From the NCBI RefSeq assembly GCF_007747995.1, contig NZ_CP036276.1:248001-312000 (forward strand): a stretch of 64,000 bases of DNA. Reading direction: 5' to 3'. Below, piece after piece: positions 16,581-49,960 of this stretch. The position numbers were made by a program, and so were the translations under genes. Under the pieces are notes generated by a model that was not told the origin of the DNA, did no database searches, and saw only the letters and a list, made by a program, of their open reading frames with translations. Position 1 is the first letter of the stretch. Each line of letters starts with the position of its first letter. This DNA comes from Symmachiella dynata (GTDB lineage Bacteria > Planctomycetota > Planctomycetia > Planctomycetales > Planctomycetaceae).

Positions 16581-17993
16581 TCAACTATCGTAGTAGAGGG
16601 CGAACTCGTGCGGGTGAGGACGCAAGCGGAATTCGTCGATTTCGTTCTCCCGCTTGTAGCTGATCCAGGTTTCGATCAGATCTTCGGTGAAGACATCCCC
16701 TTTGGTCAGGAATTCGCTGTCCGCTTCCAACGCGTTGAGCGCCTCTTCGAGCGATGCCGGGGTCGTGTTGGTTTCGGCCAACTCTTCCGGTGTCATTCCA
16801 TAGATGTCCCGATCGAGCGGATCGCCCGGATCGATCTTGTTTTGGATTCCGTCGATCAGCGCCATCATCATAGCGGTATACATGATGTATCCGTTGGCCG
16901 TCGGGTCAGGACAGCGGAATTCCAACCGCTTGGCCTTCGGGTTGGAGGAATACATCGGAATCCGCACAGCTGCTGAGCGGTTCCGCTGCGACATCGCCAA
17001 CGTCACCGGAGCCTCGAAGCCCGGCACCAACCGCTTGTAGGAGTTGGTCGTCGGAGCGGCAAAGGCCAGAACAGCCCGGCCATGTTTCAGCAAGCCGCCG
17101 ATCGCGTGCAAGGCCGTTTCGCTCAAGCCGGCGTAACCGTCGCCCGCCATCAGTGATTGCCCGTCTTTCCACAACGACATGTGGGTATGCATACCCGAGC
17201 CATTGTCGTCGAAGACCGGTTTGGGCATGAACGTCACTGTCTTGCCATGGTTTTTGGCAACGTTGCGGATGATGTATTTAAACCACATGAACTGGTCCGC
17301 CATTTTCAGCAGATCGCAGAATTCCATGTCGATTTCACATTGACCGCCGGTTCCCACTTCGTGGTGATGGGCTTCGACGACAATGCCCAAATCCCGCATC
17401 GCATACACCATCTCGCCACGCAGGTCGTGATAGCTGTCGGTCGGGCTGACCGGGAAATACCCGCCTTTATAACTCGGCTTGTACCCCAAGTTCGGTTCTT
17501 CGATCCGCGAAGTATTCCAAGCGCCTTCGACCGAGTCGATTTCATAGAAGCCGTGGTTTTGTGCTTGATCGTAACGGACTTCGTCGAAGATGAAGAATTC
17601 CGGTTCCGGGCCGACAAAACAGGTATCGGCGATCCCGGTTTGCTTCAGGTAGTCAATCCCTTTGCGAGCGATGCTCCGCGGATCGCGGGCGTATTCTTCT
17701 CTGGTGATCGGATCGACAATGTTTGCGATGACGCTCACCGTCGGCCGGGCAAAAAACGGGTCCAGCTTGGCCGTTGCGGCATCGGGGATGGCCAGCATGT
17801 CGGATTGATTAATGGCCTTCCAGCCACGAATCGATGAGCCGTCAAAGCCCACGCCGTCTTCAAACGTGCCTTCACTCCAGGTGTCGACGGGATAAGAGCA
17901 GTGCTGCCAAGTGCCCAGCAAGTCGGTGAATTTCAGGTCCACCATTTCCGCGCCGTGCTCTTTAGCAAATTCAAAGAACTCTTTGGGGGTCAT
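16581..17993 (-). CDS. glnA: Glutamine synthetase, type I
   Basis: This 470-residue enzyme makes glutamine from glutamate, ammonia and ATP. Seen are [19 protein letters not shown], the metal and ATP site residues in [16 protein letters not shown] and [45 protein letters not shown] and the substrate loop [12 protein letters not shown]. Tyr398 in [11 protein letters not shown] aligns with the adenylylation Tyr of the GSI-beta type. AAGGAGA lies about ten bases before the ATG. A perfect sigma-54 promoter match sits about 365 bp upstream, and P-II and amt genes follow in the same cluster. It ends at a clear terminator. Confidence 0.98.
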
Positions 17994-20886: not shown

Positions 20887-20902
20887 TGCAACTTCCGTGC
20901 CT
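20887..20902 (-). promoter_or_regulatory. Sigma-54 promoter upstream of amt
   Basis: The minus-strand sequence is AGGCACGGAAGTTGCA. It matches TGGCACG-N4-TTGCW except at the first base. It lies about 310 bp before the amt start, implying a long leader, similar to the arrangement at glnA. Confidence 0.7.
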
Positions 20903-45499: not shown

Positions 45500-45765
45500 T
45501 GCGAAGCCTTGTGCGCGTCTTGGGGCTACGGTTTGCGGGCGGATCAACATTTATAACATAAGCTGCCGAGCGCAACATCAATATCGCTGTCGCTGATGCC
45601 ACTGAGCAGCGACATGATTCACCCGGGACCCGTATTGCCTCCAGCCGCTCCCATCTGAGGCTGCCCCACTGTTCCCCTGGGGGGCAATCGTCTAAAATGC
45701 CAGTCTAAACCTCATGACCCACACCGTCCCGCTGACCGGGCTATATGCAGGAACTCGGAACCGAT

Positions 45766-46185
45766 ATGTATCGAATCACCCAGCAGATCGACTTTTGTTA
45801 TGGCCACCGGTTGCTGAATTATGCCGGCAAATGCCGGAACCTTCATGGGCACAATGGACGGGTGCAGATTTCCCTGGAGGCGGCTGACCTCGACAATCGG
45901 GGGATGCTGATCGACTTCACGGACATCAAAAAGTCCATCGCCACCTGGATCGATTCGGAGTTGGACCACCGCATGATTCTGCATGAGGATGACCCGGCGC
46001 TCTCCATGCTCCAGGAATTGAACGAACCGGTCTACGTGATTCGCCACAATCCGACGGCAGAGAATATCGCACGGCTGATCTACGAGTTCGCGAATTCCGA
46101 AAACCTGCCGGTCCGAGAAGTCACCTTGTGGGAGACTCCCAAATCATCAGCCACCTACGGCGAATGGTCGAGTCCGAGTCACTGA
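45766..46185 (+). CDS. queD: 6-carboxytetrahydropterin synthase / PTPS family (QueD-like)
   Basis: The 139-residue protein shows the PTPS zinc triad: CYGHRL His, and both His residues of NLHGHNG. The catalytic Cys is in GKCRNLHGH, and MLIDFTDIKK and LDHRMI follow. QueD makes 6-carboxytetrahydropterin for queuosine and other deazapurines; tgt in the same window completes that pathway. The family also contains true PTPS enzymes of pterin metabolism, so the assignment is probable rather than certain. Start at the ATG at 45766, with GGAA upstream; 45745 is an alternative. Confidence 0.85.
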   Translation: MYRITQQIDFCYGHRLLNYAGKCRNLHGHNGRVQISLEAADLDNRGMLIDFTDIKKSIATWIDSELDHRMILHEDDPALSMLQELNEPVYVIRHNPTAENIARLIYEFANSENLPVREVTLWETPKSSATYGEWSSPSH

Positions 46186-46882
46186 GCGGATAAACGCTGT
46201 CGGAAACGCTCGTTCCAGCGCCTTGTCAAATTGCGGGGCACCCCGTGTAGATGCGAAATCGTGATCAATGACCGGCGGGTTTTTGTGCGGGGGGGATTGC
46301 GCGCGGTGCGATTTCGACGGCGCATAAAGAAAGCCCCTGGAAAGCGGAAAGACAAAGAGCTTGGTTGAGTATTCTCAGGCGGTAGGCTAAATCGCGGTGT
46401 GGGTCGGTTGCGACTTAGGGGACCCTATTGCATACCAAGTTTTGTCTCTGATCCACGCTTTCACAAGGGGCTAGGCTGGGTATCGTGAGCAGAGGGCTTC
46501 TTGATTGGTTTTATGCAAGAGGCCATGCTGAAATATCGTGTTTAAACTTCCGTAACTGTGATTTCTAATATGCAATGTGCGTGCCAAACAATCGTTCGTC
46601 ACCAGTGTGACGTTTTGTTTTTTGCCGAATTGTTCAAAACCTCGCCAGATTTGCGATCCGGGCGCTGAAAACATAAAAGTAGTCCAATGTTTGCAACGTG
46701 CTTTATTGCAGTGGTTTGCGTCGATTTAATTCTTTGTGGTCTACTCTGGGACCAGGATTCGTTTGAATTTGCCCCACGATTCGGGTAATAATAGTGTCAT
46801 TGGTTCGGCGCTCGCTTCGGCGCCGATATTTACGGGTGTCGACACCTTATTTCGGCGCTATTCGGCGCTTTGGATAGGTAAA
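46186..46882. other. Long intergenic region upstream of the sigma-54 activator
   Basis: About 700 bp without a convincing protein gene, AT-richer than its surroundings in the middle part. It holds a perfect sigma-54 promoter (46571-46586) on the minus strand. The only frame behind that promoter with a plausible ribosome site is a 48-codon Arg-rich frame at 46179-46325, probably chance. Small GC hairpins (GGCGCTCGCTTCGGCGCC) lie just before the activator gene. Confidence 0.55.
46571..46586 (-). promoter_or_regulatory. Orphan sigma-54 promoter upstream of the activator gene
   Basis: The minus-strand sequence is TGGCACGCACATTGCA. It matches TGGCACG-N4-TTGCW at every specified base. It points away from the sigma-54 activator gene, toward a region of about 370 bp with no clear protein gene. 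Confidence 0.75.
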
Positions 46883-49800
46883 ATGGCGAGATATGACGGG
46901 CTCAAACCGGCGCGACGATGGCCTCTGGTCCTGGCCGGGATCGCCGTGCTGGTCTACTCGATTATCGTCCTTGGTTTTGTCAGCCAAAGTCGCGATCTCG
47001 GGCTGCGCTGTCTGATGCCCAACGAAGAGGACTTGGTCGCAGCTGGGGAACACCCTGAAAATGAGGTCGGTGTCCGCATCGATCGCGTCTTCGATGTGAC
47101 GACCGATGGCGACCGCCCGCAAGAGGGGAGCCGACTACTCAGTATTGGTGGGCAACCGGTGCGGACCTTTACAGAGTTCACACAAGCCCTCGCCAACTTG
47201 CGTTCGACCCCGACTCCAGTGGGGTCGTTCGTGCCTCAGACCAGTGACTCTGAAGAGCATGCCGGGCCGATCGTTGAAAAACTCCCCTCGCATGAACGTT
47301 GGATTGAAGTCGAGTTCTTCAAAGAGGATGGCGATCCCAGTGACCCGTATTCCCCATTTCTCCAAGAAAAACGGTTGCCGCTTGGGGCGTTGAGTCTGTC
47401 GCTGGTGTGGTTCACGTTGCACTTGGGGATCTTCGTCGTGGGGGCGATGGCGTATTGGAAACGTCCGTTTGATGCAGCGGCCCGGATGTTCTTTGCGATG
47501 TGCATCGTCACCGTTGTCGCATTTGTTGGTGGATATCACTGGTGGGTGATCGCCGCACGGTTGTGGTTGAATATTCCCTTTGCCATCTGCGCCATGCTGG
47601 TGCCGGTGGTCACGCTGCACTTTTTCCTGGTCTTTCCGCACCGTAAACCCTGGTTTGCCCGCCATCCGCGGACGATTCTTGCGGCGATTTATGCGCTGCC
47701 TCTCGCTGCGACGACCGGCATGGTGACACTGTTGTGCTATTCGGCTTGGCAACACGCACATAGCGACGCCTACGCGTTGGGGGACTTGTTATTCACGCTC
47801 TCCTACATACAAAAATCGATCTACGGATACCTAGCCGTCGCCACCGTTTATTTTGTCGCCACGTTATATGCACTCTACGACAGTTACCAAACGACCAAGA
47901 ACACCGCTGAGCACAATCAGGTGAAGTGGATCTTGTGGGCAGCGGCCGCATCGACGTTGCCGGTGGGTTATACGCTGCTGTTAGCCCTCAATGACCGGGT
48001 CGAATTCGCTGTGGGGCATGCGCGATTCCCGATGTTTATTGCCAGTTTGCTGTTCATGATGGCCTATGCGGTGGGGATCATCCGCTACAAGCTGATGCTG
48101 GTCGACCAGGTGTTCAGCCGCGGCACGTTGTACTTCCTGCTCAGCTTCGGTGTGCTGATTGTCTATAGCTTGGCAATCACCCTCAGCAGCCTGCTGGGCA
48201 TGATGCAGGACATGCAGTTCCTGCATCAGGTGATCTCGGTCACGCCGGTTGTGTTGGTGGCGGTCATTTTGCTGGGGTGGATCCGCGATCGTGTGCAGCA
48301 GACATTGGATCGCAGCTTCTATCGTGAAAAGTACCAACTCGACAAGGTCATGCAGGGGATGAATCAAGCGGTCGCCCACCTGGGCGATCATCTGGGCGAC
48401 CCGGCGACGCTGGGGCAGCAGATGCTGACTTCTTGCCACGATGTGCTGCACATCAACCAAGCGGCCGTCTATTTACGGTCAGGGCCGAACGAAGACTTCA
48501 ACTTGATTGCCGTCCAAGGTGACATGTCACCTCCCGCCCGGCTGGCAAACGATCCTGAACTCACGATCCCTCTGTTGGAAAACGCCAGCCTGCAGCGAAC
48601 ATCACTTGGCGGACGTGGCCCCCGGTCGAAGGTTCAAACGATCCTGCGCGAATTGGATGTCGACCTCATTCACCGACTGGAGATGGAAGGGGAATTGGCG
48701 GGGTTCGTGTTGCTGGGGCGGAAACGAGACGACAGTGCCTACACGGCTGAGGATCTGACATTCCTCACCGCGTTGGGTCAGATCATGACCTTGCACAGCT
48801 CGAAGGTGCACGATGAAATTACGCGGTTGAACAAGGAACTTTCACTAAAAACGGAGCGGGTTGCCGAGCAACAGCGGCAGATTTCGATTCTTCAATCAGA
48901 AATCATGGGAAGTCGCGATCCGCAGAAGATCACCGTTCAAGGAGGTTTCCGCAACGAATTGATCCGCGGCAACAGCAAGGCTATCCGCCAGTTGCTAGAC
49001 ACGGTTCAAAAGGTTTCGCACAGCGAATCGTCGGTGCTGATTCGGGGTGAGAGTGGAACGGGCAAGGAGTTACTGGCCCAAACATTGCACATGAATAGCC
49101 CGCGGCACGAAGGGCCGATGGTGCGCGTGCATTGTGCGGCGCTCTCTCCCAGTTTGCTGGAAAGCGAACTGTTCGGCCACTCCAAAGGGGCCTTTACCGG
49201 CGCACACCGCGACAAAGAGGGCCGCTTTGAGATGGCCAACGGTGGTACGTTGTTCTTGGATGAAATTGGTGATATCTCCCTGGAAACACAGGTCAAACTG
49301 TTGCGGGTGCTGCAGGAACGCTCCTTCGAACCGGTGGGCGGAACGCGGACAATTCAAGTCGATGTACGGTTGGTGACGGCGACACACCAGGATCTGGAAA
49401 GCCTGATCCTGCAAGGCCGTTTCCGTGAAGACCTGTATTATCGATTGAACGTCATCAGCATGACGCTGCCGCCGCTGCGCGATCGTGTCGATGACATCTT
49501 TGAATTGGCTCGCCATTTCTTGGGTCGTGCTGCACAACGCATCGGCAAACCGATATCTCACTTGGATGACGAAACGGTCGACATCCTCAAACAGTATCCC
49601 TGGCCGGGGAATATTCGTGAGCTGGAAAATGTGATCGAACGTGCGGTGGTGCTGGCCGATGACGAGGTGATCACACCCGGCGATCTGCCGCGGGAAATCT
49701 TGTTCCCCAATCCATCGCAGTTACAACTCGGGAGCCAAAAGCGGCACGCTCCCAGCGGAAAGCAGCCGGTCGCGGGAGGGGAAACGGAGAAGGTCCCCGT

Positions 49801-49960
49801 CGCGGTGCCTGCCGCAGTGGGAGACAACGGCGCCAACGAGGAACAACAACTTCGCGATGCTTTGTCGCGCTGTGGGGGAAACAAGGCCCGCGCTGCACGA
49901 CTGTTGGGCATGCCCCGCAGCACGTATTACAGCCGGCTGAAAAAGTACCGTATTTCGTAA
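46883..49960 (+). CDS. Membrane-bound sigma-54-dependent transcriptional activator with PDZ-like and GAF-like domains
   Basis: The 1025-residue protein has an N-terminal membrane helix, a PDZ-like region (about 60-110, GSRLLSIGGQPVRTFTEF), some eight further membrane helices (about 170-465), a GAF-like domain (about 500-660) and a coiled coil. The AAA+ sigma-54 activator domain has Walker A GESGTGKE (about 722), GAFTGA (about 770), and Walker B GTLFLDEIGD. The C-terminus is a Fis-type HTH (NKARAARLLGMPRSTYYSRLKK). GAFTGA is intact, so it should contact RNA polymerase-sigma-54. The start is the ATG at 46883 after GGATAGG. It probably senses an envelope signal through the PDZ and membrane parts. 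Confidence 0.93.
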   Translation: MARYDGLKPARRWPLVLAGIAVLVYSIIVLGFVSQSRDLGLRCLMPNEEDLVAAGEHPENEVGVRIDRVFDVTTDGDRPQEGSRLLSIGGQPVRTFTEFTQALANLRSTPTPVGSFVPQTSDSEEHAGPIVEKLPSHERWIEVEFFKEDGDPSDPYSPFLQEKRLPLGALSLSLVWFTLHLGIFVVGAMAYWKRPFDAAARMFFAMCIVTVVAFVGGYHWWVIAARLWLNIPFAICAMLVPVVTLHFFLVFPHRKPWFARHPRTILAAIYALPLAATTGMVTLLCYSAWQHAHSDAYALGDLLFTLSYIQKSIYGYLAVATVYFVATLYALYDSYQTTKNTAEHNQVKWILWAAAASTLPVGYTLLLALNDRVEFAVGHARFPMFIASLLFMMAYAVGIIRYKLMLVDQVFSRGTLYFLLSFGVLIVYSLAITLSSLLGMMQDMQFLHQVISVTPVVLVAVILLGWIRDRVQQTLDRSFYREKYQLDKVMQGMNQAVAHLGDHLGDPATLGQQMLTSCHDVLHINQAAVYLRSGPNEDFNLIAVQGDMSPPARLANDPELTIPLLENASLQRTSLGGRGPRSKVQTILRELDVDLIHRLEMEGELAGFVLLGRKRDDSAYTAEDLTFLTALGQIMTLHSSKVHDEITRLNKELSLKTERVAEQQRQISILQSEIMGSRDPQKITVQGGFRNELIRGNSKAIRQLLDTVQKVSHSESSVLIRGESGTGKELLAQTLHMNSPRHEGPMVRVHCAALSPSLLESELFGHSKGAFTGAHRDKEGRFEMANGGTLFLDEIGDISLETQVKLLRVLQERSFEPVGGTRTIQVDVRLVTATHQDLESLILQGRFREDLYYRLNVISMTLPPLRDRVDDIFELARHFLGRAAQRIGKPISHLDDETVDILKQYPWPGNIRELENVIERAVVLADDEVITPGDLPREILFPNPSQLQLGSQKRHAPSGKQPVAGGETEKVPVAVPAAVGDNGANEEQQLRDALSRCGGNKARAARLLGMPRSTYYSRLKKYRIS

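Follow-up and report, generated by a model that had tools for sequence, protein, structure and literature searches.

The DNA described here carries what appears to be the gene of a small RNA that is absent from the catalogues, strongly structured and conserved within a single planctomycete family. We propose, with a probability of about 80%, that this RNA acts in trans as part of a two-gene circuit and is turned on by sigma-54 together with an activator in the membrane. The promoter, the homology of the RNA, its covarying structure, the terminator layout, the linkage to the activator gene and the enrichment of a repeat between the two were all computed in this work. The window is a stretch of 64 kb from the 7.77-Mb genome of Symmachiella dynata (G000:C1:248001-312000), and positions are counted from its first letter. 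The search for relatives covered two genomes from the genus itself and another 34 from its family.

In the proposed circuit, the activator gene would encode a probably membrane-bound, one-component sigma-54 activator that binds TCGGCGC repeats beside its own start. Once bound, the activator would open a sigma-54 promoter with its start point some 245-310 bp from the repeats, and this promoter would drive a stand-alone RNA of about 235 nt, transcribed in the direction opposite to the activator gene. The RNA is predicted to fold as a rod with its two ends paired, the closing stem and a U-tract terminating transcription. It most likely acts in trans through unpaired C-rich elements, the candidate contact elements being ACCCAGCC near the 5′ end, an apical GACCCA and less regular CCCA elements in the 3′ internal loop. 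Transcription itself, its dependence on sigma-54 and on the activator, and the action of the RNA in trans are what we infer. The features are collected in Table 1.

Table 1. Features of the predicted circuit and its surroundings (positions in the window)
Feature	Position	Strand	Basis
6-pyruvoyl tetrahydropterin synthase gene	45745..46185	+	PF01242, E 4.5e-33
Predicted small RNA, ~235 nt	46326..46560	-	MFE and shuffles; ends inferred from sequence
Closing-stem 3′ strand and U-tract, putative intrinsic terminator, GCTTTCCAGGGGCTTTCTTT	46326..46345	-	Sequence, predicted stem
Conserved RNA core	46328..46482	-	Match to covariance model R1 (E 6.1e-6); covariation; identity to G002
5′ leader with small hairpin	46483..46560	-	Poorly conserved beyond the closest relative
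Sigma-54 promoter (-24/-12), TGGCACG-CACA-TTGCA	46571..46586	-	Exact consensus
Further UAS-like half-site, GGCGCTGA	46661..46668		Sequence
Four TCGGCGC half-sites, presumed enhancer (UAS)	46805, 46817, 46852, 46862 (46805..46868)		Repeat conservation
Activator gene	46883..49960	+	Pfam, AlphaFold model, PDB matches, relatives

Promoter, activator gene and repeats

The 16-mer TGGCACGCACATTGCA at 46586-46571 (-) matches the sigma-54 consensus TGGCACG-N4-TTGCW exactly, as a first-pass annotation of this DNA had claimed, and the second exact match that it reported in the window is also there, at 18373-18358 (-). Its chance expectation of 0.002 exact matches per 64 kb is too low, however. The whole genome holds seven exact matches and the reversed pattern also occurs seven times (5+2), a count that gives a chance rate of about 0.06 per 64 kb. 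Sites with at most two mismatches number 14 in the window, against 13.75 expected. The exact match is thus weak evidence by itself, and it is the conservation of the site across loci that makes the promoter convincing. The genome does contain a sigma-54 gene.

Conservation of the promoter in close relatives, which had been named beforehand as a test, is seen in G001, where the counterpart is exact, and in G002, where it has one mismatch (CGGCACG). Further loci were collected by scanning named genomes with the N-terminal part of the activator, the best 80 of 183 relatives being kept as loci. All but one of these 80 (labelled ‘bacterium’) bear planctomycete names. The locus set overlaps with the 37-genome set used below (e.g. 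L087 and L008 are the same contig), therefore the two samples are not independent. Six loci on short contigs were set aside; the other 74 offer 700 bp or more ahead of the activator match, and all of them have a minus-strand sigma-54-like site that points away from the same activator gene. When the best site within 900 bp is taken, with the GG and GC required, the minus strand has sites with 0, 1, 2 and 3 mismatches in 2, 30, 36 and 6 loci (at most two in 68), the six with three mismatches being no better than chance. The same scan gives 0, 0, 4 and 16 on the plus strand (at most two in 4 of 74) and 0, 0, 3 and 25 in shuffled DNA. The layout expected of an activator and its target was correctly recognized in the single sequence, where the promoter lies about 300 bp from the start (46883) of the gene for a GAFTGA-containing activator and points away from it; a promoter facing away from the activator recurs in 74 of 74 loci.

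Three other sites in this part of the genome deserve a mention. The second exact match is upstream of a gene for glutamine synthetase (16581-17993, -; PF00120), and a site with one mismatch (20887-20902, -) is upstream of two genes, one for PII (PF00543) and one for an ammonium transporter (PF00909). Glutamine synthetase, the ammonium transporter and PII are classical nitrogen targets of sigma-54. A third exact site is found at G000:C1:316647-316662 (-), some 4.6 kb to the right of the window.

The activator has the composition of a bacterial enhancer-binding protein, i.e. a sigma-54 AAA+ domain with GAFTGA and an HTH. Pfam identifies PF00158 (sigma-54 interaction domain, E 6.2e-71), PF25601 (lid) and PF02954 (Fis-type HTH), and the GAFTGA motif is present in the translation; none of the 25 NCBIfam matches listed for the protein reaches the cut-off. 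The gene is matched over most of its length in relatives, with 97% identity in G001 and 71% in G002. An AlphaFold model of residues 1-660 (pLDDT 82.7) has a single N-terminal helix, followed by a small alpha/beta region and then by long helices that form a bundle. Its C-terminal domain matches GAF domains in a PDB search. In this model the alpha/beta region looks PDZ-like and the long helices are probably membrane-spanning. Pfam finds no receiver domain in the protein, which is therefore probably a one-component, membrane-bound activator.

The TCGGCGC repeat is present in all 75 intergenic regions, with 352 occurrences, and GGCGCTG in 60 of the 75. The stretches between promoter and activator gene hold 344 TCGGCGC copies in 74 loci, at least two in each and at least three in 73, compared with nine copies in equal lengths on the RNA side, five inside the activator gene and none in shuffled intergenic sequence. 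We consider it likely, from this distribution, that the repeats are binding sites of the activator. Do they also serve a second target? In the genome of S. dynata, three of the four matches to TTCGGCGCN{0,30}TTCGGCGC (two direct copies within 30 bases) fall in this region and one lies elsewhere, and the palindrome TTCGGCGCCGAA has four further sites elsewhere. The 3-kb stretches around these five extra sites contain no sigma-54 site with fewer than two mismatches, although sites with exactly two are found near three of them, and five repeat sites of G001 have no sigma-54 site with up to two mismatches nearby. With no good sigma-54 site beside them, the extra repeats offer no convincing second target; the four palindrome sites elsewhere count against the proposed circuit. 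Another arrangement is seen in G022, where the RNA, its promoter (two mismatches) and three repeats stand together and the activator gene is on another contig, its upstream region containing neither the repeat nor a sigma-54-like site. This is the arrangement expected if the repeats serve the promoter of the RNA.

Fold, covariation and distribution of the predicted RNA

Both ends of the RNA were predicted from sequence, the +1 being set 12 nt downstream of the GC of the -12 element and the 3′ end at the U-tract. The resulting transcript (46560-46326) has an MFE of -66.6 kcal/mol and a z-score of -3.38, and none of 200 shuffled sequences is equally stable. The predicted core has the unpaired ACCCAGCC on its 5′ side, a rod of stacked helices and an apical loop with GACCCA. 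The stem that closes it doubles as the terminator stem, and folding predicts the same layout in relatives.

ATGCGC often comes after the U-tract, at 46319-46332 (-) and at the corresponding places in relatives. Across 13 genomes there are 23 occurrences of the pattern TTTTTTATGCGCTG and none of its reversed form; 2 of the 23 are at the predicted RNA. A U-tract followed by ATGCGC may be something that planctomycete terminators have in general.

A comparison with G002 is instructive. The RNA core (46319-46482) is 87.9% identical, compared with 69.8% for the neighbouring synthase gene, 63.6% for the repeat block, 36.4% for the spacer between promoter and repeats and 6.8% for the spacer between synthase gene and RNA. 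The leader (46483-46559) is 94.8% identical in G001 and 27.3% in G002. A non-coding core that is more conserved than the adjacent gene is strongly constrained.

This neighbouring gene is convergent with the RNA, whose end is about 140 bp away, a proximity that might suggest an antisense or terminator element for the synthase gene. The comparison contradicts it: a synthase homologue is found in just 13 of the 80 related loci (flanks of at most 4 kb), and we regard the gene as standing outside the circuit. Alternatively the RNA could be the leader of the next gene. Near its 3′ end, however, the longest open reading frame is on the same strand in 37 cases, on the opposite strand in 29 and missing in one, which argues that the RNA is not the leader of any one gene. 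Both of these explanations are extremely improbable.

The first-pass annotation had found no convincing gene behind the promoter, and indeed only short mechanical open reading frames lie between 46186 and the promoter. It had offered either a small RNA or a very short peptide as the product. The latter, a short secreted or regulatory peptide, could be sought in the mechanical reading frames of up to 32 codons that lie inside some RNA cores. A closed reading frame of at least 10 residues is missing from 27 of 68 cores, though, and the sequence varies through compensatory base changes, so the peptide is unsupported as a product and we give it hardly any weight.

Across the family the RNAs have diverged. 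Most share a CCCAGCC-like 5′ element, an apical ACCCA and a run of G followed by the U-tract, and the apical ACCCA columns are invariant in 32 of 32 aligned RNAs. In a set of 68 RNAs, cut with the 5′ CCCA as anchor, the mean folding z-score is -6.0 and 67 fall below -2 (20 shuffles each). Seven of the 74 loci, whose ends could not be cut (L065, L089, L090, L092, L093, L094 and L098), were left out of this set, and all seven were later matched by a covariance model at the expected place. Counted from the predicted start, the first CCCA falls within +1 to +15 in 34 of the 74 loci; in one it is at the base before +1, and in 39 it lies further down, as far as +101. In nearly half of the loci, then, the RNA would begin at the start point of the promoter, and the long leader of S. 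dynata is not general.

The small RNA suggested as a product, and the check proposed with it, a comparison of relatives for conserved structure, both fared well: the predicted structure is a conserved, covarying rod with a built-in terminator. To recover a consensus, the RNAs had to be aligned in a structure-aware manner, using a model of one subgroup. A MAFFT alignment of the 68 RNAs analysed with RNAalifold gives no consensus fold, and its column covariation forms no clean helices; an alignment of 32 RNAs gives just three spurious pairs and no consensus fold. The covariance model R1 was seeded with one subgroup of nine sequences from other genomes. At E ≤ 0.1, 60 of 79 sources (the nine seeds and the window included) give a match where one is expected, with 28.7 bits for the window locus. 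R1 has nine additional matches on the plus strand of seed loci, at 28-37 bits (the minus strand scores 155-180 bits); it also finds a second copy in L059 and, in L087, one match away from the expected place.

In the 50 R1 matches other than the seeds, 84.7% of the cells are paired, compared with 58.3% after shuffling and 39-45% when the partners are slid, and two-sided changes keep the pairing at 44 of 47 pairs; the model itself selected and aligned these 50 rows, therefore the pair counts favour the structure. The two innermost pairs, at the apical loop, are 70% paired and have no two-sided change, and are thus unsupported. A plain MAFFT alignment of the nine seeds has two-sided changes at 5 of the 47 pairs. 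Together with the slid controls, these changes argue that the remaining structure is real.

A second model, R2, finds the RNA in 29 of the 37 genomes of the family, as a single copy in 28 and as two tandem copies in G033. It has no match in 21 genomes from six other families of the class, and its seven matches in a phylum-wide draw of 149 genomes all belong to the same family. On loci outside its seed, R2 matches 24 of 26 from the family, or 22 of 24 without the contigs counted twice (L008/L087 and L025/L111), and none of 11 from outside it. Among the eight family genomes that the genome search misses, G005, G007, G016, G025 and G030 are recovered in the locus test and G009 and G021 again have no match; G012 was outside this recheck. 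The RNA adjoins the activator gene and points away from it in 27 of the 29 positive genomes, the exceptions being G022, where the two are separate, and G032, where both lie at contig ends and cannot be judged. A survey of orientation left 10 of 48 loci unclassified, as it required a GAFTGA-like motif in an open frame of more than 800 residues. The two tandem copies behind one activator are at L059:3493-3777 (G033:C58:3582-3865).

Possible modes of action and the sister families

How would such an RNA act? One explanation is that it serves as a decoy, titrating one RNA-binding protein through repeated CCCA in the manner of CrcZ and CsrB, which use other motifs. The CCCA elements are mostly unpaired (mean 0.81, versus 0.39 for all positions), and many of the RNAs carry them at several separate places. 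The 68 RNAs contain 3.07 CCCA each, compared with 1.61 in shuffled sequence, an excess that is inflated by about one per RNA because the 5′ CCCA served as the anchor for cutting, and that is moderate once this is discounted. We know of no such C-rich-binding partner protein for a decoy in planctomycetes. The genomic arrangement speaks for a decoy too, a sigma-54 RNA beside its activator being the arrangement of cbrB and crcZ (PMC8871633). Taken together, we rate the decoy at just short of an even chance.

Base pairing is the commonest mode of action of bacterial small RNAs, and here the C-rich single-stranded elements could be seeds for G-rich stretches of messages. The invariance of the apical ACCCA is consistent with this, as are the 34 of 74 loci whose RNA would open with the 5′ element. 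On the other hand, the bases outside the loops are mostly paired. The 40 genomes searched contain seven copies of a 14-base complement of the apical loop, of which five are the RNA gene itself and two lie elsewhere, fewer than the eight of the reversed control; the test is a weak one, since it captures long complements only and the RNA of S. dynata has no exact copy of the 14-mer. We regard base pairing as a serious possibility of somewhat less than even odds. Of the two, pairing with messages seems to us slightly less likely than a decoy that offers several sites to one C-rich-binding partner.

The layout of promoter, repeats and activator gene is not confined to the family that has the RNA. 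In 4 of 11 activator loci from sister families (G041, G050, G046 and G037), a sigma-54-like site on the minus strand, one or two mismatches from the consensus, has such repeats behind it and is followed by an open reading frame with an alpha/beta-hydrolase fold, assigned with Pfam in G050 and G041 and by eye in the others. This counts against the proposed circuit: a similar layout leads there to a hydrolase-like frame instead of an RNA. In the family of S. dynata, a tblastn search of the 80 loci found no alpha/beta hydrolase beside the RNA (E ≤ 1e-3). It may be that the circuit has switched from one product to another. Hydrolase-fold frames behind a divergent site are found in two sister families, at L142:138-1196 (-) and L139:677-1537 (-).

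The most far-reaching form of the decoy hypothesis combines these observations. The RNA would be a planctomycete-specific decoy with its own membrane sensor, titrating a C-rich-binding regulator through CCCA loops; it would be an independent global switch of the CsrB/CrcZ type, in which an RNA has replaced the alpha/beta-hydrolase gene of some sister families. As a whole this seems to us rather unlikely.

Comparison with known RNAs and circuits

No match to Rfam 15 reaches the gathering score in the 64-kb window. At E ≤ 1, a search of 10 loci (including that of S. dynata, L001) gives only two matches to mir-657, far below the cut-off. 6S RNA is also a long rod, and the shape predicted by folding here, a rod with a bulged middle and an asymmetric internal loop, could suggest a 6S-like RNA that binds RNA polymerase. 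Yet the predicted RNA has no match to RF00013, either at the gathering score in the window or at E ≤ 1 in the 10 loci, and the genome has its own 6S RNA elsewhere as the sole match (G000:C1:4749073-4749271 (-), 64.4 bits). We have rejected the identity with 6S RNA, and a 6S-like function is very unlikely. RF00013 matches at E ≤ 0.001 are found in 23 of the 30 genomes searched, 18 of them over the cut-off.

In a library of open-licence papers we found none on such a regulatory small RNA from planctomycetes. A 2010 list of candidate RNAs includes a Rhodopirellula-1 motif from Proteobacteria and Planctomycetes, with no Rfam number (PMC2864571). Its presence in Proteobacteria makes identity with the RNA described here less likely. 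A table in a 2022 review has the entry ‘PVC group 8’, which we take to mean distinct small RNAs, against 345 for Proteobacteria (PMC9029176). The predicted RNA comes with a promoter, a presumed activator and a presumed enhancer, so its expression should be switchable by the removal of one gene. This would make post-transcriptional control genetically accessible in a phylum for which little has been described, and it points to a dedicated control circuit that leads from a sensor to an RNA.

Other bacteria provide useful points of comparison. The Qrr RNAs of Vibrio are sigma-54 RNAs encoded near the gene for the LuxO activator; they act by base pairing, are used with Hfq and often occur in several copies, unlike the RNA described here, which is single-copy in 28 of the 29 matched genomes. 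In enterobacteria, the activator of GlmY is GlrR. GlmY is a small RNA expressed from a sigma-54 promoter (PMC3162934), as predicted for the RNA described here, but it comes from a different phylum, and the planctomycete RNA has no Rfam match. Another example is the CrcZ/CrcY-CbrB system of the Pseudomonadaceae. There too, the RNA gene lies beside the gene of its sigma-54 activator, with a sigma-54 promoter, activator sites and synteny that is conserved within one family (PMC8871633). CbrB is a two-component response regulator and crcZ is located downstream of cbrAB (PMC8871633), whereas the predicted planctomycete circuit has an activator with a sensor part of its own and a divergent RNA that has no match in Rfam.
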